Of a DNA stretch of 64,000 bases, positions 24,362-40,609 are shown piece after piece. Position 1 is the first letter of the stretch. Each line of letters opens with the position of its first letter. The stretch lies in NCBI GenBank assembly GCA_950295325.1, contig OX485807.1:44608440-44672439 (forward strand), read 5' to 3'. A program made the position numbers and the translations under genes. This DNA comes from Polytrichum commune. Lineage: Eukaryota > Streptophyta > Polytrichopsida > Polytrichales > Polytrichaceae. The notes under the pieces are model-generated. The model saw nothing but the letters and a program-made list of their open reading frames with translations, ran no database searches and had not been told where the DNA came from.

Positions 24362-24850
24362 GGATGCTGTCTTTATCCTGACGGACTTGAATTTTACTGA
24401 ATTTTGTGTGTAATTACATTACCCCATTTCGGACACGTAGGATGTAACACTATATTCGTTAATCGGAGACTTTTGAAAGTCTCAAAATAAAATATGCCCA
24501 TAGTTTGGGATGCCAATATTGTGGGCATATGGAATGTTGGGAACATCAAGAACATGACAATTTAAAAATTCGCACGTAAAGAATATTCCTAATACTAAAA
24601 ATATAAAATTGCAATTATAATGAAAACGTGAACTCCATGTGGAAAATAACAAGCGAATATAAAAAACAAATGGTTTATGTCATTATAGAGTTTGGGGTGC
24701 GCATCCCATAAGTAAGGTTCTTATGGTTTTGGATGGCACATCCCAAACGTATACCACAATGGAGTGTGACAAGTCTACTAAGTCTATTAAAAACCAAGAC
24801 TACTAAGTACTAATGTTTTTTCCCGCCGTTAACTTTCACCTATGTTATGT

Positions 24851-27800
24851 TTACCCATCTCCATCTTCCGCTTCATATCCATTCTCGGCGTCATTTTCCG
24901 CAGCTGCAATACGTGCCAAGTTGTCTTTGGCAAAATCTATATGTTTTTGGGGGATGGTCATTGCTTCTGTGTTGGAACCTTTGCGCGGCTTCCAAGCACA
25001 AAGTATAGTATCCGTGTTTATCCAAACCGGTGTGTACGCTGAGTCCACTGTCCACTTAAAATTCTTTTTGGTGTCCCAACCTAAATAAGTGCGGAGCACG
25101 TTGTGGTCTTTAGTGCTTGGACGACAATATTCCACCTCAATTTGACGAAAGTTGGGGCTAGTTCGAACAAAATTGGGTGAAGACAATGCTTTTACCAACC
25201 AAATTGGCTTGGGATGCTCCTCATCCCCAGCTCGTACGAGGACCAAATACCCTTCATGGCAATCAACACCTACACGAAACGACGGTGCCGGTCGATTGCG
25301 GGCAGGGCCAACGTAATGCTCGTCCATTGCGAACTCTTCACGAACGTCTCCATTGCTGAAAAACATAGTATCGGACTCGACAACCGTCAAACGACTTTGT
25401 GGCCAAAATCCTTGTGTCAAAGTCGTACGGGTGTCGCCACCAAGTGTCATCAAGGCTGAGCGAATGCGATCCCAATACGCGATCAACGGTTCATGGGTAT
25501 CTCTAACACGTCTTGTGATGTCCTCCTCGCACAACTCTTTCCAATATTCAATGAATCCGGATATGCCTTTGATGATTTCCGGCCCATTCCTCATGGGTTC
25601 GGGTTTGCAAGGCTTTGGTTCCCCATCCGGGACCAAACATTTCCCATCATTGTCTTGACGCCATACGAGTATACCATCATCCGGGCCCCAATTAGGAGAT
25701 GTGCACAAAAGCTTGAATTGCATGGCCGGGAGACCATCGTCCCTCATATAAAATCGGAATTGTTGTGCTTTGGTATGCCCCACCAAACGGTCCCCTCCCT
25801 TCAACATGTATGGCTTGATGAAGGCCTTGAAATTTGGTACTTCCTCAATCAAGTGCGGAATTACTGGCATATGGTCCAAATCCATATACGATTTCATAAG
25901 AAGAGGTATGGTTGGAAAATCTTCTTCATGCAACTTCATGCTCCACCGTCCGAATGATGCATCAATGTCGTCGTGTGTATGTCCCACCATCAAGAAAGAC
26001 ACAAACACCTCCTTGAAGATTCCTTTCGCCACGAGCAATGACCAAAAACAAAATACGTATCGACATTTGTTGTCCTTCGCACAATTATCAAGTTGAACGT
26101 GGAGAGTTGGAGGCAATGGTTTTGCACAAATGGGCTCTCCGGGTGGTTCTGGCAATGACGACATACAAACCTCCTTTCCCAAAAGCACTGCCTCATAAAG
26201 GGATGTGGTTCCACAACCATCAAAAAGTGCACGGGAAGAATGTACCGGTGGCTTCTCAAGATCGCGCAACAGTTTTGCAAATGAACCCACCGTGTGGTTA
26301 GCATCCCCAGGGTAAAAATCCAAACCATAATGGGCATACTTTACGTCCCCATGGCCGTGGGCAATCATACCTGGAAAAAAGAAACGATGCGTGACCAAAA
26401 TAATCAAATAACCACTAAACGGATGTATGGAGTTGGACATTTGCCAAACACACCCAAGAAAATTGGATAGACTTTAAACACGTAGTTGTGATTTCATACA
26501 AACCTGTGACAGCTACGGGCAACTTGAAGAGACCATCCGTGGCCTTTATTTTGCGTGCATAACAAGGGCATGCGGTCTTGGCGTGGTCCATTTTATCATG
26601 GATGACTGTTAGAACCTCTGTGGGCCTCATTATGGATAGAGCACGATTCTTATAATAATCTTGACGGTGTGCCTCTTGATTGTTGACATGTTCAATATAT
26701 TTTTTCTGGTGTCTGGAATGAGATTCAGTGCCTATGGGGTGGGCGTCTCGAAGACCTTTGTATTTTTCACACGTCGTACATCTAGCGAACTTGTCCCCGG
26801 GTCTTTTCAGAATGTATTCCGCAAACTGCTGGTTTTTAATCACACTCAACTTGGACAAAGAAATGGGCCCACATCCCGCTATGCGACCCACTTCATTGAT
26901 GTCCGTTAAGATGTTCTTCCATTTTGTGCCCGTGGGCAACACCATTTGAACAACCTTCTCCCCTGACGACAATGTCCTCGTCTTGTGGGGCATTGCATCG
27001 GCCAATGGCACTATGATGGTGGATAGTGTCGCGGACGCTTGCAGTGTAGCCTCCCTAGGTTTCTTTGTGCCCGAGTTGCCATGAAATCGAGAGCGGCGAC
27101 CCAACGATGAATATTTTCGAAACCTATAAAAGTCAGCCTTGGAGACGGCGTGGATGGTATACCACGCTGTACAACACACATCAACATTCTCAAGTGTCAC
27201 CACCTTATGCCCATGGGTATCAAGGTGCAAATTTCTGTGGACCTCGAGTTTCTTAGCCGACCTCATACGAAAATCCGCAAGCCACATCTCTTGACGCAGA
27301 GATCTAATTTTCTCCCGCGGGAAAAATTGGCAACATTTCCTCGCGCAACAATCCTTGCCGGACACTAGACGGATAGATTCGTCCCCCAAAAGCCGATCCC
27401 GTCGACGCTCCTTATCTCCGCGAGGCACACGGTTTGAATCATATCTACGGAGGCCTTTGCGAGGACGTGTTGTGGCCAACAAAGCTAATTGTGTTTGCTT
27501 ATGCCGCCGCTCATGATCCCACAAACTCACTTCCTCATGTAGAACTCGACGAAGCGGCCATCGACGCAAGGAAAATCTCCATGTCACCGGGAACTCTACC
27601 GGAAGCAAAGAGTTCAAGATGCACACGCCAACATCATCGAGACCTAGGGCGTTGGCATCGACACAATCACGGGGATTGGAGTTTCTACATATACCATCTG
27701 CCACCGGGACACCAACCTCGTTGAGTAGAACGACATCAAGGCCAACCCATTGCTCCCTCCCGAAACCGGCACACAACGGAATGTCATCGTGGTCATCTCC

Positions 27801-27980
27801 GGAATGCAGAGATTGTTCGTGGACTTCCAAAGATTCATGGGAGGATGTATCCACAAACACCCCCCTCACGTTTGGCACACCATTACTATCTGCCGACGGG
27901 GAAGACAGTTCACATTCAGCATCGGATGACGATGCATACGTCGACAACTCCAATGAACTATCACCCACATGCAACGCCAT
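24851..27980 (-). CDS. Putative RNase-H-fold transposase of the giant element
   Basis: The gene has two exons: 27980-26504 and 26370-24851. The 133-bp intron starts GTTTGT and ends TTTTTCCAG. The joined frame is 999 codons (998 aa). I chose MALHVGD because the ORF upstream of it looks untranslated. Zinc-ligand candidates are CCARKCC (211-217), Cys270 and CTTC (401-404). HDKMDHAK (461-468), VQLDN (583-587) and GHTHDDID (621-628) are spaced like the acidic positions of an RNase-H/DDE core. I recognise this arrangement as a recurrent uncharacterised plant/algal mobile-element protein (DUF7869-like). The catalytic assignment is inference. It lies divergent to the ParB-like gene and its 3' end faces the left TIR. 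No frameshifts were seen, so it may be intact. Confidence 0.75.
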
Positions 27981-28204
27981 ACAGCCTAGACCAACCACCA
28001 GGACATGATCAACCCAACCACCACCGCAATGCATACAAGAGAGGATAGAATATATGTGGAGATAAATGGCCCAAAATTGACAAACAAATTTTGGTGCACC
28101 ATTGGAGAACCTCACGCACAAAGACGAACGCGCGTCCCAAAAAAACGTTTTAAGCATACGTCTAGGTTGTTCACTAATGTAAACAATACATGGACAAAGA
28201 GGAG

Positions 28205-28670
28205 AACACTCGTTAGTCGTCCAGGAGGGCCCTGCTGTTCGGACCAGCGCCTGTCCACATACAACCGACGACGAAATCAGAAATCCGAGAACGCCACATG
28301 CATTTACGAACGCGCGTTCGTGACCTCAGTAACTTCTCCATGTACATCCGGCGGCCTTCGAGATCCCTCAAATGAGAGCACCCTGAGGAATATCGGTTTT
28401 GTAGGTCAAAGTACCATGTTGACTTAGGAACCTGCGCGATATACTATCACAAGAGAACACTTGTCCATACGCACAAAATTAGCAAATCTGCAGATGATGC
28501 CTGAATCAACTCCAACAATATTTTGAACACTGAGCACCTCCATATTGTGAATTTGATTATGTTGACTTTTGCGTACCTACCCATTTACGAACGGACGTTC
28601 GTAAATGGGTGCGACCCCGTGTTCACATCCTTCACGGACGAGCGATGAGCATATTTTTCTTGCTATTCTG
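28205..28670 (+). pseudogene. Decayed copy of the exon 3 end and intron 3 of the ParB-like/HAD gene
   Basis: The segment runs parallel to 37590-38170. Matches in order include AGGAGGGCCCTGCTGTTCGG versus AGGAGGGACCTGCTGCTCGG, GACCAGCGCC versus GTCCAGCGCC, a palindrome at the same place, GTTTTGTAGG, ACTTAGGAA versus CCTTAGGAA, ATACTATCACAAGAGAA versus GACTATCACGTGAGAA, GATTATGTTGACTTTTGCGTA versus GATTATGTTGATTCTTGCATA, a second palindrome, and GAGCATATTTTTCTTGC versus GAGCACATTTTCCTTGC. It has the same orientation as the intact gene. It marks an internal duplication or a second, mostly lost gene copy. Confidence 0.75.
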
Positions 28671-28746
28671 TGTTCGTAAATTACTGCCATACTGATGTGC
28701 ATGAATGAAGATGTGTTGCTGGATACGTAGACAATAATGACATGTA

Positions 28747-29303
28747 TTTACGAACGAACGTTCGTAAATTCCCGACCATCAGATAACAATAGATACGGGT
28801 CAAATAAGTATGTATGATCCTCGAAGGCATATTTACGAACGCACGTTCGTAAATGACTGTCATGGATTAAGTGCATGTGACTAACCATATGAGTACCTCA
28901 ATCCAGAACATGCTCTCATGTGGGATTTACGAACGCACGTTCGTAAATTACCGACCAACAGGTACCAATAGACAAGGGTCAAATATGTATGTATGAAACT
29001 CGAAGGCATATTTACGAACGCACGTTCGTAAATAAATGCCATGGATGATGTGCATGTGACTATCCATGAGTAGCTCAATCCAAAACATGATCTCCTGTGG
29101 GATTTACGAACGCACGTTCGTAAATTACCGACCATCAGGTACCAATAGATAAGGGTCAAATATGTCTGCATGGTCCTCGAAGGCATATTTACGAACGCAC
29201 GTTCGTAAATAACTGAGATGGATTACGTGCATGTGACTATCCATATGAGTAGCCCAATCCAGAACATGCTCTCATGTGGAATTTACGAACGCGCGTTCGT
29301 AAA
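28747..29303. repeat. Tandem ~178-bp units, each with two palindromes
   Basis: Palindromes at 28747, 28926, 29103 and 29282 form one series (spacings 179, 177, 179). Those at 28832, 29011 and 29188 form another (179, 177). The DNA between them repeats too (CTCGAAGGCATA, CATGGATNANGTGCATGTGACT, ATGTGGGATTT, TTACCGACCANCAGGTACCAATAG). About three units are present. Confidence 0.85.
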
Positions 29304-29910
29304 TCCTTGCCATGTCCAGGTCCGAATCGTTTGTCTAAACCTGAAGCTCTTCATCTTTACGAACGTGCGTTCGTAAAGTTCCGGTATTTACGGCGGTATA
29401 TGCGGTAGGTACAGCCTGTACTGTACCTGGGTGGTGTAGGGTTGGCGCACACGAAATGGCTTGAGCGCGTTCGGTGAGGTCTGTAGAGCGCACACTTGCA
29501 TGTGCCGCTGAAAAGAGCTTTGTTGTGGGGGGAAGAGCTTTAAGTACTTCACCCCGCTGGTTCAAAATCCCTTGGATGCTTTTTAAAAAGCAGATTCCCG
29601 CCGCCTTCTTTGACCTAACAATCTTCCATTCCATCCATGCGGAATTATATAAATAGCATTGTCATGTATGGAACATGCCTTGCATGCACGCCAACATATT
29701 GAAAATATATAAATCGGTTGCACACCTTAGTTGTGACCAAGGTCTCATCGAAATATATGTATATACGTATATATATATATATATATATACACATAATGTC
29801 TAAATATGGAGATGGTTAACATTGAATATTTAATGATTTGCGACTAAGGTATGAAGTCCAAGTTAATTGACAATTGATGCCTAATAAAGTTATGAATGTC
29901 GAAGTCATAG

Positions 29911-29951
<41 letters not shown>

Positions 29952-30933
29952 CAATGAGGTCAGAGTGGCTAAAAAACATGTTGCGGACGCCCCTAAAATT
30001 ATAGGTATCATATGTTTCACATCAAAAAATGACCGTAATATGGTCACCAAGTGCATGAATACAACTAAAAAATCGGGTTAATCCATAATGGCTTGCACTA
30101 GGGTAGATTGAGGACACTATGAACTAATTATACCTAATAATATATGTAAGTTAGGTCTTCTTTCAAATGGTATCTAGGTGTGAAAATAAGGAATTAAAAT
30201 GGCATGAGTAGGAAGGATTAATCAATTTGTAATGCTGCATAGTATGATAGCGTAATGATCATTGAGACTTGAAACCATACTAGCTACCGTAACGTTGAAT
30301 CATAGTTACAATTATTATGTGTTTGACGTCCTATTGGAAATTGAATTTTCGTCCACTTGTTGTAAGGGTACGGATACACATTGGTTAAATGTTTATTAGA
30401 TCATTGGTGATATTTATAGTTGAATGCATTGTTCGATTGTTAGTTTAAGTTGACACATGATTAAATGAGTTGAGGTCCTATTGGAAATAGACTTTTAGGG
30501 TTTGGGGAAATGCACTATTAATTTGGAATGGTGCATACAATAGTATGTACTTACAATTAATATATGTTTTGCATCCTATGAGAAGGATGTGCATCATCAT
30601 AGCTTAAAGTGTTGATATAAATTGAAGTCTTAAGACATGCATGTTATTATAATAAGATCGTGGATTGTGTGATGAAATTTCACTCAGAACTATTAAGGTG
30701 AAAGTGGGAATATTTGAAATTTCACTTATCACTTAAACCAAAGTTTTATCTCAAATCTATTAATTTGGAATGTGAAATTGACAATTGCCATCATTATCAA
30801 TTATTATAGTTGTTATGAACGGAATTAAGCATTCTCCATCCAACCAACATTGGTAGACCAATTTGACCTGCCCTCAGAAAACAACATGGCCACATATAAG
30901 AAAGGTTGGTAAGATAAAAAGATGCAGGGATGT

Positions 30934-31012
30934 AGGGTTTAGGGTTTGCGGTTAGGGTTTAGGGTAAGGGTTTGGGGGTAGGGTTTAGGGGTTTAGGGTT
31001 TGTGAAAGTTGT
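30934..31012. repeat. Interstitial telomere-like repeats (TTTAGGG variants)
   Basis: GGGTTTAGGG, GGTTAGGGTTTAGGG, TAAGGGTTTGGGGG and TAGGGTTTAGGGGTTTAGGG occur in direct succession. TTTAGGG is the canonical telomere unit of most plants. The copies here are mixed with variants. Confidence 0.8.
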
Positions 31013-31889
31013 GTATGTGGTATTTGGGTTTAGGTTTTAGATTGTTACTAGGATACATTACACACACAAACAATATTGACTCCTCAAAAACCCTTGTAAT
31101 TGCATTAACTTCATTCATCGCAAGCTCGTAGTTGATGCTAGCAAAATAGTTGACCACTCCAGAAATGCATTAGTTCAAGCTAACACCTAATATTAGAACT
31201 TGAATTGACATCCTATCGTATAGCAACTCTGCGCAATCTCATATTATTATGAATTCTTTTTTGCATGTAATATTTATTTGAGGAACCATCGAATTAATTG
31301 AAAGATATCTAGCTCTTACATAAACTATATTTTAAAACACCATATATATATCTTTGGGGGTGGATTCTACATTGACAACCTAGGGAGTGACATGCATTGT
31401 TTATTACGAATTAACTGAGCATATTTTCCTAAAATATGTTTACAAGGAATCCAAATGTAGAGGTACTAAGGAAATAAAACGAGTAAAATTCATGTATTTG
31501 AACTAAGCTTGTCAAGTTAATGCCTTAAACGCGTCCATTACATATAAATATGTCAAAGCATGAGAATAACATGAAGGGTTCCAATATACAACCATCTCCC
31601 ATCTCCCATCGCATCCCATCCCATCCCATCCCTTCCCATCACCTCCCATACCATCCCATCCCATCTCTCTCCCAACCCTAGCCAGTGGAGTTGTGCCACG
31701 TGGCAGGTGCTGGGAAACCCTAGCGGCGCACCTACCTCCCCGCGCCCCTTCCTCTTCTCCTCATTTGTCATTTCGAGGAGAGGAGGAGCGGAGCGTTTAG
31801 AGAGCGAAGCTCTTGCTTTTTTTAGTCTTGAAGTTTTAAATTAGTTTTGTTGCAAGTTTTGAGAGATTTCAGATTGAGAGCTTGTGTGA

Positions 31890-32170
31890 AAGCTTTTGAG
31901 TTTGTGAAAGCTTTCATTGTGAAAGCTTGTGAGTTTGTGAAAGCTTTCAGTGTGAGAGTTTGTGAGTTTCAAAAGCTTGAGAGCTTGAGTAGGAAAGCTT
32001 CAGAGTTTCGGATTGAGAGCTTGAGGGTGATCTTTAGAAGCTTGAGAGTTTAAGGAAGCTTGAGAGTTGAAGCTTGAGAGTTTAAGGAAGCTTCAGAAGT
32101 GAAGCTTGAGAGTTTAGGGAAGCTTCAGAAGTGAAGCTTGAGAGTTTAGGGAAGCTTGAGAGTTTAGGGT
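31890..32170. repeat. Degenerate GAAGCTTGAGAGTTTAGG tandem repeats
   Basis: AAGCTTGAGAGTTTAGGGAAG and relatives (AAAGCTTTCAGTGTGAGAG, AGAAGCTTGAGAG) repeat for about 280 bp with 15-35-bp periods. A pyrimidine-rich, leader-like stretch follows. Possibly part of an LTR or a transcribed leader, but no matching second LTR was seen. Confidence 0.6.
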
Positions 32171-33342
32171 TTGCTTAAGAGTTCAGAAGCTTGAGAGCTA
32201 CAAGGTTGTGAGTTTTGTGTACATAGGAGTATACTAGGGTTTGTATATAAGCTGTGAAGGCTTGAGGTCTGCATTAGAGAGTTATCTGAGTGTGCATTTG
32301 AAAGGCAATTGAGTGTGCAGTTGTGAGGATTTCTGGGATTTTCAGAAAGAGAAGAAGCAGGGATTGCAGTGTGCAGCATTTCAATGTAATTTGTTATCCT
32401 TTCCAACTCCTCTCACATTCTGAAAATGTTGCTTCTTGAATTCAATTTCTTTTGTTACATGCAATGTGAACTATCACTCTTTTCTTCATGTTTCATTCTG
32501 CATCTCATTCTGCATCTCAATTGCTTTATGATTGAAGAATTGCATCATTCTGACCAAAATTTTGCAGGCACGGCTGCAAGCAGAGTAGCTAATAAGTGAG
32601 TTATATACATATACGTATATATACGTATTCGTATATACACGAATACATATATGTACGGACAGGGGATCCCAAAACCATCACATATACGAACGCTCGTTCG
32701 TAAATGGACATACACTGCATACCCACCTCCATTTACGAACGCTCGTTCGTAAATGGACATACACTACATACCGAACCTCCATTTACGAACGTGCGTTCGT
32801 AAATACGCACTCCACGTTCTTTGAGATGATCTATATTTACGAACGCACGTTCGTAAATATACTCAAAATATCACTCAGAAGGAACCTTAACTTAAATATG
32901 AACCTCTATGAATATCTAAAGAACAAATACAATTTTGCGAACACCAATAAGACAAATCACATGTACTTACGAAAGATAAATCAACCAAATATCCGAAAAG
33001 ATAGACCAAATGGACATACTTACGAACGCACGTTCGTAAATGAATCCAAACCTATAAAACCTATATCTTTTACGAACGATCGTTCGTAAAAATAACCAAA
33101 TATATTACAAACACATTCATGACGAGTAGTCTCTTTGATCTTCATATCTTTTACGAACGCTCGTTCGTAAACTCAATACTAAAAATTTATATGATCTTGC
33201 AACCCCTCATTTACGAGCGAACGTTCGTAAATATAATTACATCAATTGCAAAGACGCATTAACACTGCGTAGTCTGTGGGATATGCATGTCACTTACGAA
33301 CGTTCGTTCGTAAAGTCACTAATTGTTTATATTCTGTTGCAG

Positions 33343-36300
33343 ATGGCAAGATCAAGCAGAAGCGCCATTGAGATGTTCGCGGTGAAGGTCGATGGCCTCC
33401 CAGAGTCGGTGTTAGACGATAACGGCAACGACAACTATGTCCCCAAGGAAGACTTCATGGGGGAGTGGACGGCACTGCCAGAGAAGATCGGGGACGGCCT
33501 CTTCTGCATGCGCTTCACCTACGAGCTGGAGACAAGACCGGACCAGCCCGAACAGTGGGTTCAAATGAAGACGTGGGAGATAGAGTCCATAGAGGCCCAG
33601 GGGGAGTATGTAATTCTGGACATGAAGAACAAGAAGGATCATATCAACCTCTTGTTACATTTTCAGAAAAATACCTTCTCCTACCAATACGCCACCAATA
33701 ACGTAGCGGAAGATGCCAAGCACTTCGACCTGGACGGCCTCTTCTCCAAATATGCGTTGAGCCCATACTGGACTGCAAGGAAATTGAACGCCCTGGCATT
33801 GAACATCTCCAAATACAACAGTGTGGTCACTGAGGCAAACAAGAAGAAGAAGAGCCCCAGGAAACCATCCACATCAGGGGCAGGAGGATCTAGAAGTGCA
33901 CCCAGGCCTGTGCCTTCCGCTAGCAGGGCGACGGAGGGCCCCAGTAGACACTCCACGCCATCGAAGAGGACAAGGGAGGAGATGGAGAAATCGGGAGTAA
34001 CGGAGACCGCAGAGGTGACCTCGCCTGTCGTAATGCCCACCCCCTTGAAAAAGGGTGAGAACCCTGACGCTGTGAAGGCCACGAGGATCCTTCGAGACTT
34101 CAACAACTACTCGAAGGATTGCTGGCCCATGGGACGCCACTTCACATTCAACGTGGACTGCTTCAAGTGCGAGATGTCCCCCAACAAATGGGTGGTTCGC
34201 TCTCGCGAAAGCGGTGGTGTGAAGTGGCAGATAAATAATCTAATGAACAACGTCAAGTGGGACAGGCAGACCGTCTGCGTCATGCCGAAGGGGCTGACAT
34301 CCCGTCCGACGGAGAAGGACTGGCCACGGATCCAGAATGGAGAGTTCTGGATCATAGACGGCCAACACAGCTTGGAGGCGTCCCAAATAATTCTCAAGGA
34401 CGACAACTTCCAGCATGAGCTGAAGGAGGACTTGCGCTACTGGAAGGCGTTCTTGGTGTGGTCAGACGATTGGGACAAGCTACGGAAGATATCCACCTTC
34501 CTCAACTCCGGCAACAAAATCAAGGCCTTCGAGGCGTCGTGGGCAGCCAACATAGTGGCTGCAAGGGACGTCTGGGTCGCCCACGGGTGCCCCCCTAAAG
34601 AAAGGGAGAACGCGAAGACGCCGTCTCCACAATGGAAGGTGAGTTTACGAACGAACGTTCGTAAATATCTTTGACATTCAAATTTTCAAGTTCTTTGACA
34701 TTCAAACTTACGAACGTGCGTTCGTATTTTGTGCGTTACTGATGTTTTTCTTGCTGCAGGCATTCTGCGACGCGATGGTGGACAAGTTCTCCTCCATCGA
34801 CATGAAGTCTACAACAACCAAGTCTGTCCTGGAGCTCAAGGGTGAGCTCCGCCTCATCTGTTGCAACAGGGACACTTGGGAGTTGTGGACACAATTTTTT
34901 GATGCGCACAGCTCGGGCGATCTGGTCAACCCCGACACCGAGGAGAAGTACAGCGCGGAGAAGACCGGGGAGGCCCCTCCACTACTGAGGGAGTTCTTCA
35001 GGTCCCTTCAAGGGTTAACAGAGTCCGAGTTGCAGAGGTGCGCGGTGCATCTTCTTGGGAACACTGTGGGAAGAACCATCCCATACCCGAAGATATTTTT
35101 GAAGAGGCCAAGACACAAGCCCGGCACGTATTCCATCAAGGAATGGTGCGAACACCGCAAGCTGAAGACTGCTGCAATGAGGGAGTTGAGCGCCCTAATA
35201 CCAGAGTACGCACTCATCCTAGCCGACGGGGACATTAATTGGGCCAGCTGGAAGATGTTCAAGGTCGACTACAACATCTCCGGACCCTCAATGCGTTGTC
35301 TTGTCAAGGAGCACGCCTCCATTTTGAAGCAGAAGGGGAACAAGAGGACAAAGAAAACCGAGACGGATCCCCAAGAGGTGGAGCAATACAGAAGCTTTTT
35401 GACGCGGAAGAGGTTGGCCACATTCGAAGGAGTGGCCAGATTTTGTCTGTTGACAAAAGGAGTGGAGAGGGTGACATTTTCCAAGTGGGACCGGACCATG
35501 AGCAGGGCCGAGGTGAGGGAGGATCGACGGGGGTGCCCATTTGCCCTGATCGATTTCAGGGGGATCCCCGGTGCGTCGAGGCAGGGGGGGAAGGACATAC
35601 CTTTCTACGACCCCTTCATGGCCAAGTTCAAGGAGCACAAGTCTCCGGACATGAGGGAGCCTCACGTTTGGCTGTGGATAGTCGAGCAGGAGAAGCTCTC
35701 TGCTGTAGTCGACCTGTACGAGAAGTCGATCAAATTTGAGTACAGCATCTTCCACAGCACTTACGTGCCCGCCAAGACGGAAGGGATCGTGGCCATCAAC
35801 GAGGCCAGGGGGAACAAACAGGTGGGGGCGGTCAGCCTCGTCTTCTTGACGTACAACGCGCTGCGGAATGGGCGAGCCCCTGTCAAGGCGAACACTACGT
35901 TCAAGAAGATCTACAGCATCCCCCATCCCCCTCCCAAGGATCTGCTGCAGGAGACCTTGTACACTATCTTCCCGGCGATGGAACTCAGGTTGGAGTTCTA
36001 CGTCTCCGTTTTGCAGAGCGTGGCAATAAGCGGAGAGACCGTGTACAACGTTTGTGGCGGCAGCAAGTTCATGTACGCTGCGATGGTAAGCTCTCCAACT
36101 AATATTTACGAACGCTCGTTCGTAAAGTTCACCTCAACTTGTCTTGGGTTTGATGACATTGTTTCTCGTCGTTGATGTTTACGAACGCACGTTCGTATTT
36201 TCTAACGTATTTGCTTGAATCTCAGATGCTGGGGCTGGTCGTCAACAGCTTCATTGAAGCCATCGACGAGGAGGACTTCCACGTGCACAGGGCGAAGGCC

Positions 36301-39045
36301 TCCACGATGGACCTGGAGGACATGTCCCTCCCGAAGACGGACATCAACATGCCCGTCGACGAAGGCATGCCCGCCATGGAGACGGACGACGACGAGCCCG
36401 CGCCCTCCTACAACGTCGAGGCGATCCTCCGATCCTTGGACGTCACTCCTCTCCGCATTTTGGCGCCGTCGGGAAATCCATCCGACGTGCAAGGGACTCC
36501 GGGTGGATACACGGGGTCGTCGGCGGGGACAACCCAAGATGTCCTCCCCGCGAGAACGTCTGGAGCGGAGGCATTCGGCACTCCCGGGGGATGCTCGACA
36601 TCCGTGTCGCCCAGGCCGATCGTGGTTCCCAAGATGGAGAACCTCGACCTTCTGGACCAACGGTCCCGACCGACGTTGGACCAGTACCGCAACACGAGGC
36701 GGAGGATGAAGAAGACCCCCTACGTGGAGCTGCCTCCGGGGGCAATCATCGAGGTCTCCGATGAGGACGAGGGCGACATGGAGATCATGGTCGAGCTGGG
36801 GGTAGACTTCGACAAGAACAAGCGGGTCAAGGAGGAGGCGTTGTCCGTCGCCGAGCTTAACGCCAAGCTCGAGCAAAAGATGAAGGAGGACATGGCGAAG
36901 GCGGCAGAGGAGAATGCCAAGAAAATGTTCGCAATTCAGGAGGAGCTGAGGCAGTCCAACGAGAAGACGGACGCCATCCTCGCCATGCTCCAGCGTATGC
37001 AGAGCTTCTCGGCGCCCCCCCAGCCGGCCTACCCCTTCCCTGGAGGATACCCCTCCCAATCCCCTCCACCGGGCATGTTCACCGGAGGGCCTTCCCGCCA
37101 GCAGGCGCCCCACCCCACGCCTGTTGGCACTCCTCCGCCACCAGAGGTTCCCTCGACCACCTCCCACGATGCTGTGGCGGCGGCCATCCAGGAGGACGAG
37201 GATTTACGAACGCGCGTTCGTGAATCTTCAGGTCCTCCAGTCCTCACCCCTCCCCCTTCAAGGGTAGGACTGCCCTCATACACCGATGCATCGTCTTTCA
37301 CCGTCGTCCCCAGGGTAGTAGACAGACATGGCGATGACTCTGCGCGACACACTGACATGGTCATTGTGGAGGACACGCATGGGAGCCCCAATGACGCACC
37401 AGGGGTGCATGGGATGGACGTGGAAGAAACCCATGCGGCGTGGATGGAGGATGTCAGGATGGACGCGCTCGACCTGGGCGCCGAGGAAGAAGACGCGCTG
37501 CGCATCCAGGCGACACAGGCCTCTCAACCGGAGCGTGAGGCAGAGGCCATGGAGACAGAGGCGGCTGCAGCTGTGGAGGTTACGAACGCGCGTTCGTTAA
37601 TCGTTGAGGAGGGACCTGCTGCTCGGTCCAGCGCCGCTACCCCTCCCCCCGATGACGAGGTAACTCTCCTCTGAGAATACCATTTTTTAACGAACGCGCG
37701 TTCGTAACCTCTCTAACATCGCGATGTTTTTATCTTCATCGACATCCAGTGGCCTTGCGAGAGCCCTCTTCAGCGGTCCCCCTTAGGGCCGAACAGTTTT
37801 GTAGGACACGGCATCATTTTGCCTTAGGAAAATGTGATAGACTATCACGTGAGAAATGTAAATATTCAACGGATTAATATATGAGCCTATGTTATCTGCA
37901 TCGCGTTGCTTCAAATTCTCTGCCCTCGACCCCTTCTCGTATGTTGTATATGTTGATGAGATTATGTTGATTCTTGCATACCCACCTCATTCGCGAACGC
38001 TCGTTCGTGAAAGGCTGCGACCCACTGTCCACCTCATTCGCGAACGACCGCTCGTAAATGTACGTGTAGCCGCGCTCACGAACGAGCGCTCGTAAATGAT
38101 GCGCACCGCCCCCGCAGCCTTCATTCACGAACGCTCGTTCGCAAGTGTGCCCTTGAGCACATTTTCCTTGCACTCTCCTCACTTCCTCGTCTTTCCCCAT
38201 AATGCACCGTCTTCATTTTCTACGCAAAATTTCATTATTGGATCATAGAATTAAACTAGTCGCGTTGTTCATCACAGGACCCCCCGGAGATTGGTCGCAA
38301 CCCCTCTACCAGTGGACCTCCCACCCGGAACAAACCTTTCATCGTTTTTGACCTCAACGGGGTGTTGTGTCACACCCAACACATCCCAAGGGTCCCCACG
38401 CGTCCCTTCCGTCACCCCGACGAAAGGGACTACGACGGCGAGCTCGACACCCTCATTAACCGCAAGGCTGTCCGCGCCCGTCCCGGCTTGCGTGACTTCC
38501 TTCGCGAGGTGGTCGAGTTCGCTCACGTCATTGTGTGGAGCTCCATGGTCATGGAGAACACCGAGCCCATCGTGCACTTCTTGTTCCGCGATCTCCCGAG
38601 CCCTTGCCTCGTCCTCGGCCAAGAGGACTGCGACGAGCTGCTCGACGAGAAAGGTCAACCGGTGCCCAAGTTTGGCGGTCGGGGCGGAGGACAACAGTTC
38701 CTCAAGGTCCTCCGCTCGAGACTCTGGCGAGGCGTCCCCCGTCTGCAAGGGACGCCGCACGGGTGGTGGCCGACTCCAGAGAACACCGTCCTCATCGACG
38801 ACAGCCCCACCAAGAGCGTCTTGAACCCCCCGGGCAACGTCATCTTCCCGGACACTTGGACCGGCGATAGGCAAGACACATTTTTGGTCGATAGGCTAGC
38901 CCCCTACCTTAGAAGGCTCGTGCTCCACGCCGGTAGCATCCCATTTTTTGTTAGGTCCAACCCCTTCGGCAATGCGGCGCTAAGCCCCCGCGATAATGTA
39001 TTCAAGAGCATCATGAGGCTCGCCAAACTCAATAAATTGATTTGA
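33343..39045 (+). CDS. Element cargo: ParB/DGQHR-like N-terminus fused to FCP1/HAD phosphatase-like C-terminus
   Basis: The exons are 33343-34638, 34760-36085, 36226-37659 and 38278-39045, all joined in phase 0: 4824 nt, 1607 aa. DGQHSLEAS at residues 339-347 resembles the ParB/DGQHR nucleotide-binding motif (R changed to S), followed by ISTFLNSGNKIKAFEASW. Residues 433-874 match no family I know. 875-1352 is acidic and Pro-rich, with a SUMO-interaction-like IIEVSDEDEGD (~1048-1058) and a coiled coil (~1081-1134). The C-terminus has HAD/FCP1 motifs: FDLNGVLCHT (nucleophile Asp1377, second Asp replaced by Asn1379), VIVWSSM and VLIDDSP. GC-rich codon use differs from the host genes. A CAG directly precedes the first ATG, so a leader intron is possible. 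Function is unknown. If intron 3 is retained, the protein ends at 37674 without the HAD domain. Confidence 0.72.
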
Positions 39046-39249
39046 AATGCCTCCATGTCTTTGCTTGTATCATGTGGTTCACATTTACTAATGCTTGCTT
39101 CGTTTTTGGATGTCTTTTGTTGTTGTGATTGTTGTTGTTGTTGTTCTTGCCCATAGTCTGCCCCCATATGCGACGCCCCTGTGGTCGACGGCCCTTCCCG
39201 TCTCCTCTCGCCCCCTGCCTCCCCTTCCCGCGACGTCACGGGCTTCCAA

Positions 39250-40157
39250 ATGCCATCCCTCTACCAGTTCTCGGCGGTCGACGCGGCCTCGGCCGTGGAT
39301 TACTCCCGCGACGTCGGCATCGACGACGGCGTCGTCAACAGCCCGCCCCCACCACTTGTCGCCCGCGCCTACGCCCCGTCGCCCTCCCCCCTCTCCAAGG
39401 AGAAACGGACGCTCGTTCGTTTGGGACACCTCTCGCCCTCGAGGGACGACGCCGTCGCTCGTCGCGGGCCGAGCCGGCGTCTCCGCATGGAAGGCCCCCG
39501 TTGCCACACCTCCCCCGCCGACTCCGTTCCTCCCCCCGCAACGTCCTCCGCGATCGTGGGCCCTCCACGCCTCGACTCCCCCCCGCCATCCAACATAATT
39601 GCAATAGTTCCATCGGCTCCGGATGCTCCCGTCGACGCCCCCCTCGTTCCCACCGTTCCCCGCATGGACGTCCCCAAAGCCAAGGTGCCCTCCTCAACCC
39701 TGAACCCCTTTCTCGCTTTTGCTTTCCTTGTCTTCCGTTTGCGTGCCGTTCTCTTTACGAGCGCCCATCCCAAACCGCCCTCATTATTTTCCCCACTCCA
39801 TTCCTATTCTTATCTTCCTATGACGTTGTTTCGCAGGTGGTTACCCGCTCGCTTGGTGCCCGGCCCTCCTCCACGTCCTCCTTGGATAGGCACGCCCTCA
39901 AGGCCGCATCTTCCGAGTCCGATCGTTGTCTGGCCCTCTGGAGAAGCGCAAGACGTTCCCTTTCGCAAACACCCTCGCATTCTACTTATAATACCACCTC
40001 TTACAATTCGGGAGCGCGTCCTAAAACATGCAAGAACGACACATATTCCTGTCCAGGCAACACACAAGGATACAGTCGTGGGCCTGAGATTTTTAGAGCC
40101 ATGGAGGCCGCCAAAAAAAAGGGCTTAGCCGCAAAAAAAAATAATGGGTCGGACTAG
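39250..40157 (+). CDS. Possible Pro-rich protein gene at the right end of the element
   Basis: The likely exons are 39250-39684 (donor AAG-GTGCCC) and 39837-40157 (acceptor TTTCGCAG), phase 0, giving 251 aa from MPSLYQFSA. The exon may begin at an acceptor at 39156 (CTTGCCCATAG). The sequence is Pro/Ser/Ala-rich and ends EIFRAMEAAKKKGLAAKK, a basic tail. There is no recognisable domain. A degenerate palindrome at 39402-39423 lies in the coding frame. It could be a separate gene or a 3' alternative exon set of the preceding gene, whose last exon ends at 39045. High GC leaves other frames open, so the frame choice is tentative. Confidence 0.35.
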
Positions 40158-40609
40158 TGTGACGTCTAGAAGCGTACTAGTGGGACGGACTCCCTAAATG
40201 GGCTTAGGTGTAGAACATATTTAAGTGCTTACTTTCTATGCTATTCCAAGTTACTCAAGACATTGATGGTATTTCCATTATAATTGTATTTCAATCCCAA
40301 TTAATTCATTCAACTTCCATTCATTCTTCGCACCTTCCCTTCCATTCATAACGAGTTGTGATTTCATACGCAACTATTTTCATGTATGCCTCACATTTTT
40401 GTTCACTTCCATGCCTTTATGTATAATAATAGTAGCATACCATTATACATATGGAATTTTTAGTCGTCATTACTGGTCCAATTTTGAAAGGTGCATCCTT
40501 ATATAGTCTCATAATCAACAAAAAGTCTCCAAATACCGAATATAGTGTTATGTAAGATGTCCACGTGTGATGACATGTCAGCAAAGTAGAGGTAAAGTGG
40601 GGGAAAAAT

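Follow-up and report, generated by a model that had tools for sequence, protein, structure and literature searches.

In Arabidopsis, VANC21 binds YAGTATTAY motifs that are arrayed in the noncoding regions of VANDAL21, VANC6 uses different motifs, and the motif arrays of VANDAL elements turn over through tandem repeat formation (PMC5735166). Sola DNA transposons, which have a 4-bp target-site duplication (TSD) and terminal inverted repeats (TIRs) of at least 11 bp and may exceed 15 kb, have been reported in a moss (PMC10741241), and fungal DNA transposons carry TET/JBP dioxygenases (PMC12730594). Here we describe a 64-kb stretch of the genome of the moss Polytrichum commune (contig OX485807.1, positions 44,608,440 to 44,672,439; the whole stretch is called the window), in which one TIR transposon of 16.1 kb carries a DUF7869 gene, a second gene termed ORF1 and many copies of a 22-bp palindrome. 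We propose, with a probability of roughly 0.6, that the palindromes are the sites of a homodimeric protein encoded by the element, most likely the ORF1 product, which would serve self-recognition and probably anti-silencing or self-activation. No account of this transposon was found in the literature searched by title and abstract openings. A previous sequence-only reading of this DNA, made without database searches, had stated that a comparable array was not known to it from any plant element described so far, which is too strong in view of the dense Arabidopsis VANDAL arrays of the VANC motif (PMC5735166).

Palindromic sites in the window

The palindrome has two arms, which contain four CpGs, around a variable 2-bp centre. 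A scan for TTTACGAACG-NN-CGTTCGTAAA with up to three mismatches finds 30 sites in the window, 16 of them exact, spanning positions 28303-38145, and none in any of 100 dinucleotide-preserving shuffles of the window. All 30 sites are inside the transposon and the rest of the 64 kb has none. The sequence-only reading had counted about 31 copies with a freely varying centre, confined to the element; the confinement stands and the centre does vary across the window sites, and the count is lowered by one because the 31st copy (ending at 39423) exceeds three mismatches.

By the inferred exon limits, 28 of the 30 sites are noncoding. Ten form a left array between the two divergent genes (28303-29377; this and the following sites are given on the + strand and come from the motif scan unless stated otherwise), and nine form a second array in the inferred 5' untranslated region (5'UTR) intron of ORF1 (32683-33314); sister copies of the element likewise have arrays upstream of ORF1 exon 1. 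Two sites each are found in ORF1 intron 1 (34644-34728) and intron 2 (36105-36199), and five sites with drifted outer bases in intron 3 (37687-38145). Exons 1, 2 and 4 contain none. Both coding sites are in exon 3: the first (37203-37224) encodes D L R T R V R E and is identical in the same-clade element E57, and the second (37579-37600) encodes V T N A R S, corresponding to F T D A R P with switched arms in the sister element E37. The dispersal over leader, introns and coding DNA that had been reported is found, with the qualification that the sites are partly tandem copies and that two only are coding.

Tandem copying within the arrays is seen as a 179-bp unit repeated 3.1 times (28746-29304) and a 49-bp unit repeated 2.5 times (32681-32804). 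In addition, the stretch at about 28200-28650, upstream of the DUF7869 gene, looks like a divergent duplicate, sites included, of the 3' region of ORF1 (the end of exon 3 and intron 3, 37520-38200). These units, the duplicate and the close spacing of sites in the non-autonomous type copy described below all speak for simple copying, in which the palindrome would have spread by tandem duplication without any selection on its sequence. Since several sites are tandem copies and two sites only are in coding DNA, selection is not provable from the window alone.

A symmetric switch between two clades

The sister elements E27 and E37 have a TIR core in common with the window element, but their palindrome is TTTACGGACG-NN-CGTCCGTAAA, with both arms changed symmetrically. 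Across the genome (407.8 Mb searched in 64 contigs, the seven contigs cited here being 42-78 Mb each), the exact TTTACGAACG-NN-CGTTCGTAAA motif occurs 2,909 times and its reversed control not once; with up to three mismatches the numbers are 9,764 and 27. The exact switched motif (GACG/CGTC) occurs 1,147 times. When each arm is allowed any two inner letters, 4,283 sites are obtained, 4,099 of which fit R/Y (2,909 AA/TT, 1,147 GA/TC and 43 hybrids) and 184 of which read anything else.

The motif type follows the ORF1 clade. In the upstream stretch plus exon 1 of 20 copies and four further elements, all 24 of which were totalled, the nine copies of the W clade have 88 A-type sites with no G-type or hybrid site, and the 15 copies of the E clade have 107 G-type, 14 A-type and 12 hybrid sites. 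Exon 1 of ORF1 in E27 and E37 is about 39-44% identical to that of the window type, and the DUF7869 protein of the same families is 71-85% identical (75% for E37). Nor is the switch accounted for by the type of TIR, since the TIR variant TTAATT/GTAATT is found with A-type sites in E57 and with G-type sites in E27. The switch also reaches coding DNA: at the site starting at 37579, the window element reads AAC GCG CGT TCG (N A R S) and E37 reads GAC GCG CGT CCG (D A R P), so that both arms are changed and the palindrome is kept, with two amino-acid changes. A single two-arm switch that runs through the arrays, introns and coding site of sister families is left unexplained by simple copying.

Among the matches listed, both versions of the motif are found almost entirely where these elements are. 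All 86 distinct places of the exact motif among the matches listed (of 2,909), which represent seven stretches within 2.6 Mb of the start of one contig, are in stretches with the element TIRs or coding homology. For the switched motif, 47 of the 50 distinct places among the matches listed (of 1,147) are in stretches that match ORF1 or the TIRs, and the remaining three are near C1:25.98 Mb. The exact motif was not found in viral contigs. The test for enrichment inside elements that the sequence-only reading had called for was made on these listed places, which also bear on the idea that the sites are operators of a host transcription factor that the element uses for promoter or enhancer function. 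Plant transposons commonly contain sites of host factors, and many of the palindromes are indeed upstream of both genes; yet the near-complete restriction of the listed places to these elements, together with the presence in one genome of two clades with different versions, each of them abundant, makes a host factor quite improbable.

A 2.2-kb slice at the expected array position contains at least six sites in 15 of 20 TIR pairs, one or two in four and none in one. The 20 pairs were drawn from 30 read by eye among the matches listed; of the ten others, four had been retrieved separately and the rest were taken as near-identical W copies. Among the low slices, that of E57 misses most of its array, which is outside the 2.2 kb, and those of L058, L063 (one site each) and L059 (zero) belong to TIR pairs in which the probe of the non-autonomous family is present; the remaining one, L069, has two sites.

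Conservation and symmetry of the arms

In 17 directed, overlapping pairs of upstream stretches, W arms are substituted at 205 of 1,457 positions, compared with 807 of 1,903 in the flanks and 1,763 of 4,748 in the rest; for E, the corresponding numbers are 232 of 1,293, 870 of 1,874 and 1,972 of 4,314. Arm divergence is thus 14-18% (2% to 29% by pair) versus 42-46% in the flanks, and arm substitutions are rarer than flank substitutions, as selection on the sites would require. The W centres (67 of 146 substituted) are as free as the flanks. From W100 to C7, 28 of 36 CpGs are conserved in the arms and 3 of 15 outside. An arm divergence so far below that of the flanks is not what simple copying would leave behind, and, taken together with the two-arm switch, it gives that explanation only a very slim chance. 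The symmetric arm switch, the low divergence of the arms and the array-bearing TIR relatives support, at the sequence level, the claim that copying alone does not account for the palindromes and that a symmetric site of the dimer type is under selection; the array itself is confirmed, on stronger grounds than first noted.

Selection could also act on pairing rather than on protein reading, in which case the sites would function as RNA hairpins or DNA cruciforms, for instance in splicing or small-RNA targeting. The sites are self-complementary, the short introns 1 and 2 have two palindromes each, and symmetric changes are in excess of shuffles at some positions: in W at position 1 (5 versus 1.95, p 0.04) and position 2 (8 versus 3.5, p 0.0045), and in E at position 1 (7 versus 2.1, p 0.0005), position 8 (2 versus 0.13, p 0.006) and position 9 (3 versus 0.92, p 0.037), with p values taken over 20 tests and uncorrected for relatedness or test number. 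However, the one-sided changes show no clear bias towards pairing, with 24 transitions that keep a G-U pair versus 17 that break the pair, in addition to 29 transversions. A hairpin would permit any paired inner letters, whereas 4,056 of the 4,283 sites are one of the two symmetric versions, and ten of the window sites are between divergent genes. A role as paired structures is accordingly very unlikely.

The transposon, its genes and its copies

The transposon spans 24446-40549 and is flanked by the 4-bp TSD ATGT at 24442-24445 and 40550-40553 (no strand; recognised by matching TSDs across copies). The left TIR (24446-24474, + strand) consists of a AACACTATATTCG core followed by TTAATCGGAGACTTTT, and the right TIR is at 40521-40549 (- strand); both were identified by an inverted-pair search and the genome TIR pattern. 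They form a 30-nt inverted pair that is 90% complementary and contains a 13-bp perfect core, one base longer per side than the annotated 29-bp TIRs. The ten top-scoring copies, the window element and five other elements were compared for TSDs: 15 of these copies have both ends, and 14 of the 15 have a matching 4-bp TSD, the 16th copy being without a right end. With at most one mismatch, the genome contains 828 + 850 matches to the TIR pattern. In a search with ORF1 exon 1, nine of the best 97 of 1,087 candidates, the window copy included, tie at the top with 100% identity, which suggests that the transposon was active until recently.

The DUF7869 gene (24851-27980, - strand) encodes about 1000 amino acids in a frame that is open after removal of an intron at about 26371-26503, which was placed by splice signals and frame. 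The product matches PF25273 (DUF7869) in Pfam with an E value of 4.1e-40 and is the probable transposase of the element. ORF1 (33343-39047, + strand) encodes 1607 amino acids in one open frame after splicing of four exons (33343-34638, 34760-36085, 36226-37659 and 38278-39047), with limits deduced from splice signals and frame alone. Its product can be divided into a fast-evolving N-terminal region (residues 1-165), a DGQH region (about residues 331-432), the part encoded by exon 2, and a NIF/FCP1-like region (residues 1374-1567); exon 3 includes a heptad-like stretch, as judged by eye. The C-terminus matches PF03031 (NIF) with an E value of 2.6e-14 and 53.7 bits against a cut-off of 21.8 (50.9 bits for the sister E37), and no other ORF1 domain is above the Pfam cut-off. 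The catalytic motif of NIF/FCP1-like phosphatases is DxDx(T/V). In its place, the ORF1 domain (38278-39047) of the window element has FDLNGVL, as do E27 and E37. The second Asp is thus replaced by Asn, and the domain may lack phosphatase activity.

Other searches with ORF1 gave little. The structure of exon 1 predicted from the single window sequence has a mean pLDDT (predicted local distance difference test) of 35.4 and is unusable. A YEATS-like match in the N-terminal region (best E value 0.018, 4 of 11 members) is below the cut-off and was not used, and one ORF1 member matches phrog_21482, a family of unknown function, with an E value of 0.0032. An assignment of part of exons 2-3 as an amino-methyltransferase was rejected, the hhalign score being 14.8 versus 14.1 for the reversed control in a comparison with eight sequences (seven phage loci and one L076 ORF). 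The pattern of ORF1 exon 1 was matched by 49 viral-contig and 53 prokaryote-genome stretches, none of which was confirmed as a relative. In the ORF1 alignment (A3), C7 is omitted because of a stop codon and E57 is included only from after its stop.

A stop-to-stop frame of 323 amino acids (39157-40128) is located inside the element 3' of ORF1; it has no Pfam match, may represent an additional exon or an independent gene, and contains the palindrome look-alike near 39404-39423. A run of TTTAGGG-like repeats resembling plant telomeres (30933-31002) is also within the element, upstream of ORF1. In one W-type copy, L024 (C1:2284500-2288500, with C1:2274828), exon 1 and later exon pieces are about 10 kb apart, and this copy may be split within ORF1 exon 2 by an insertion of several kb.

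A non-autonomous family is represented by the type copy L021+L022 (C1:636500-651500), which is 9.5 kb long, has TIRs and the TSD CATA, and retains relics of 81 and 46 amino acids only, one from each of the two genes. The dense palindrome arrays of this family, with many spacings of 33-34 bp, were read in this type copy. The family is found in at least 33 places with 94-100% identity over a 1-kb probe (best 40 of 448 candidates scored), and from this it looks as if it has been mobilised recently in trans.

The other genes of the window encode Phi_1, LTP_2 and F-box domains according to Pfam, in keeping with plant DNA. Elsewhere in the assembly, the small contigs C12, C23 and C10 (L076, L077 and L079) have bacterial-looking genes, including ParB_N domains, a ParB-methyltransferase fusion and a recombinase-like frame, which are probably contamination.

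Candidate readers of the sites

We infer that ORF1 is the binder, that it dimerises and that its role is anti-silencing, in each case from sequence. In the proposed mechanism, one subunit would read each half-site, with the core TACGAACG or TACGGACG, and the 2-bp centre would be read loosely or not at all. The many sites near both genes and in the ORF1 introns suggest that the element is marked for the protein of its own family: those around the upstream regions of both genes and in the introns would bring ORF1, with its NIF-like domain, to the element, and both genes would be kept active against host silencing. ORF1 supplied in trans would help the non-autonomous copies, and as ORF1 diverged, the two arms of the array sites would have gained the identical base change. 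The ORF1 proteins of W and E37 are identical at 27-37% in residues 1-165, 47% and 61% in parts of the DGQH region, 53-58% in exon 2, 32-40% in exon 3 and 60% in the NIF domain. The N-terminal region (residues 1-165) is a candidate for the region that determines site specificity.

The palindromes could instead be internal sites of the DUF7869 protein, or of another transposition factor, used for transpososome assembly. Subterminal repeats serve transpososome assembly in the En/Spm and Ac elements. The palindromes, however, are not subterminal, as about 3.9 kb separate the left end from the start of the arrays and about 2.4 kb separate the right end from the site closest to it, and many of them are in ORF1 introns, the inferred 5'UTR intron included. 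It agrees with a transposition role that the 9.4-9.5-kb non-autonomous family has been amplified with its TIRs kept and with dense arrays in the type copy, that the shortest of the 30 TIR pairs among the matches listed is about 7.6 kb (read by eye), and that the DUF7869 protein splits into the two clades of the motif in the copies compared. Against such a role, the DUF7869 protein has changed less than ORF1 exon 1 between families with different motifs, as noted above. We consider this explanation rather unlikely.

Several observations weigh against ORF1 as the reader, or against protein reading as such. ORF1 has no confident DNA-binding domain in searches of Pfam, NCBIfam (0 families for each of three ORF1 exons) and PDB sequences (0 matches), and its exon 3 is about as diverged as the N-terminal region. 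The alignments used for the arm and flank comparison are partly anchored by the palindromes themselves. The E centres, mostly CG, CA or TG, are substituted at 33 of 130 positions and are no freer than expected of a read base, and the excess of symmetric changes could fit pairing or palindrome-templated mutation as much as a dimer. The E-clade arrays are impure, with 14 of 133 sites A-type and 12 of 133 hybrid, and W89a, a W copy, has only three sites. A recurrent A-type site that begins about 78 bp before the start codon of ORF1 is seen in otherwise mostly G-type E copies (L034, L035, L038, L039, L040, L041 and L045; in three of these copies an outer base of the site differs); it is perhaps a relic or a cross-regulatory site. 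Finally, only one split, that of the two clades, underlies the switch, and the clades are also distinct in their DUF7869 protein, so ORF1 is unproved as the reader.

If reading by an element-encoded homodimer is correct, the VANDALs would not be the only transposons to have evolved sequence-specific self-recognition through a protein of their own, and the DNA code used here would be symmetric and easy to score. The presence in a single genome of two clades that are one base per half-site apart would provide a natural experiment on how a protein and its dispersed sites change together, and the apparent recent activity would make binding, methylation and mobility directly testable.

Comparison with known systems

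Repeated palindromic sites are also a feature of the ParB-parS systems of bacteria and phages, and the DGQH-motif protein of the element weakly matches a ParB-like profile. The ORF1 DGQH region matches phrog_1033 weakly (best E value 0.019, 7 of 11 members; 0.029-0.046 in four members scanned singly) and DUF6551 more weakly still (E value 0.12-0.13), and a ParB profile comparison by hhalign, likewise weak and made with three comparison sequences, gave P 0.12 versus 0.76 for the reversed control. PF02195 (ParB_N) matches four places in the genome, all of them on small contigs and none in the element, and does not match ORF1. In a ParB-parS-like arrangement, an ORF1 dimer would load at the palindromes as a clamp through a ParB/Srx-like DGQH domain and spread as a family-specific coat that excludes silencing, and the palindrome letter would be a self/non-self code between the clades of one genome; we regard this as a speculative and improbable extension. 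Unlike ParB-parS, the element is a eukaryotic transposon, and no ParA-like gene is among its two genes in the Pfam scan.

With the fungal TET/JBP transposons, the element may share an accessory gene that is tied to host DNA methylation (PMC12730594). The enzyme of those transposons acts on methylcytosine, and in this respect the moss element differs, since the Pfam scan found no TET/JBP domain in its proteins.

By description rather than by sequence, the element resembles the Sola transposons in its 4-bp TSD, its TIRs, its length and its moss host. No motif array of this kind was found for Sola elements in the literature searched by title and abstract openings. VANDALs are Mutator-type elements. 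The TSD of Mutator-type elements is 7-12 bp (PMC10741241), and that of the palindrome element is 4 bp in the 14 of 15 copies mentioned above.

The closest functional parallel that we propose is nevertheless with VANDAL21, VANDAL6 and their VANC proteins. The palindrome element differs from VANDALs in having 4-bp TSDs, a DUF7869 protein and an ORF1 that is NIF-like. The VANC motifs are described as 8-9 bases long, non-palindromic and in one orientation (PMC5735166), unlike the 22-bp palindrome. In both systems, a short, putatively cognate motif is repeated many times in noncoding regions and introns, partly in tandem, the transposon encodes an accessory protein (here putatively ORF1), and related families have different versions of the motif (PMC5735166, PMC10398659). 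As in the VANDAL/VANC system, motif and accessory protein diverge together, which in the moss is seen as two clades and one switch, with the probable transposase diverging as well.

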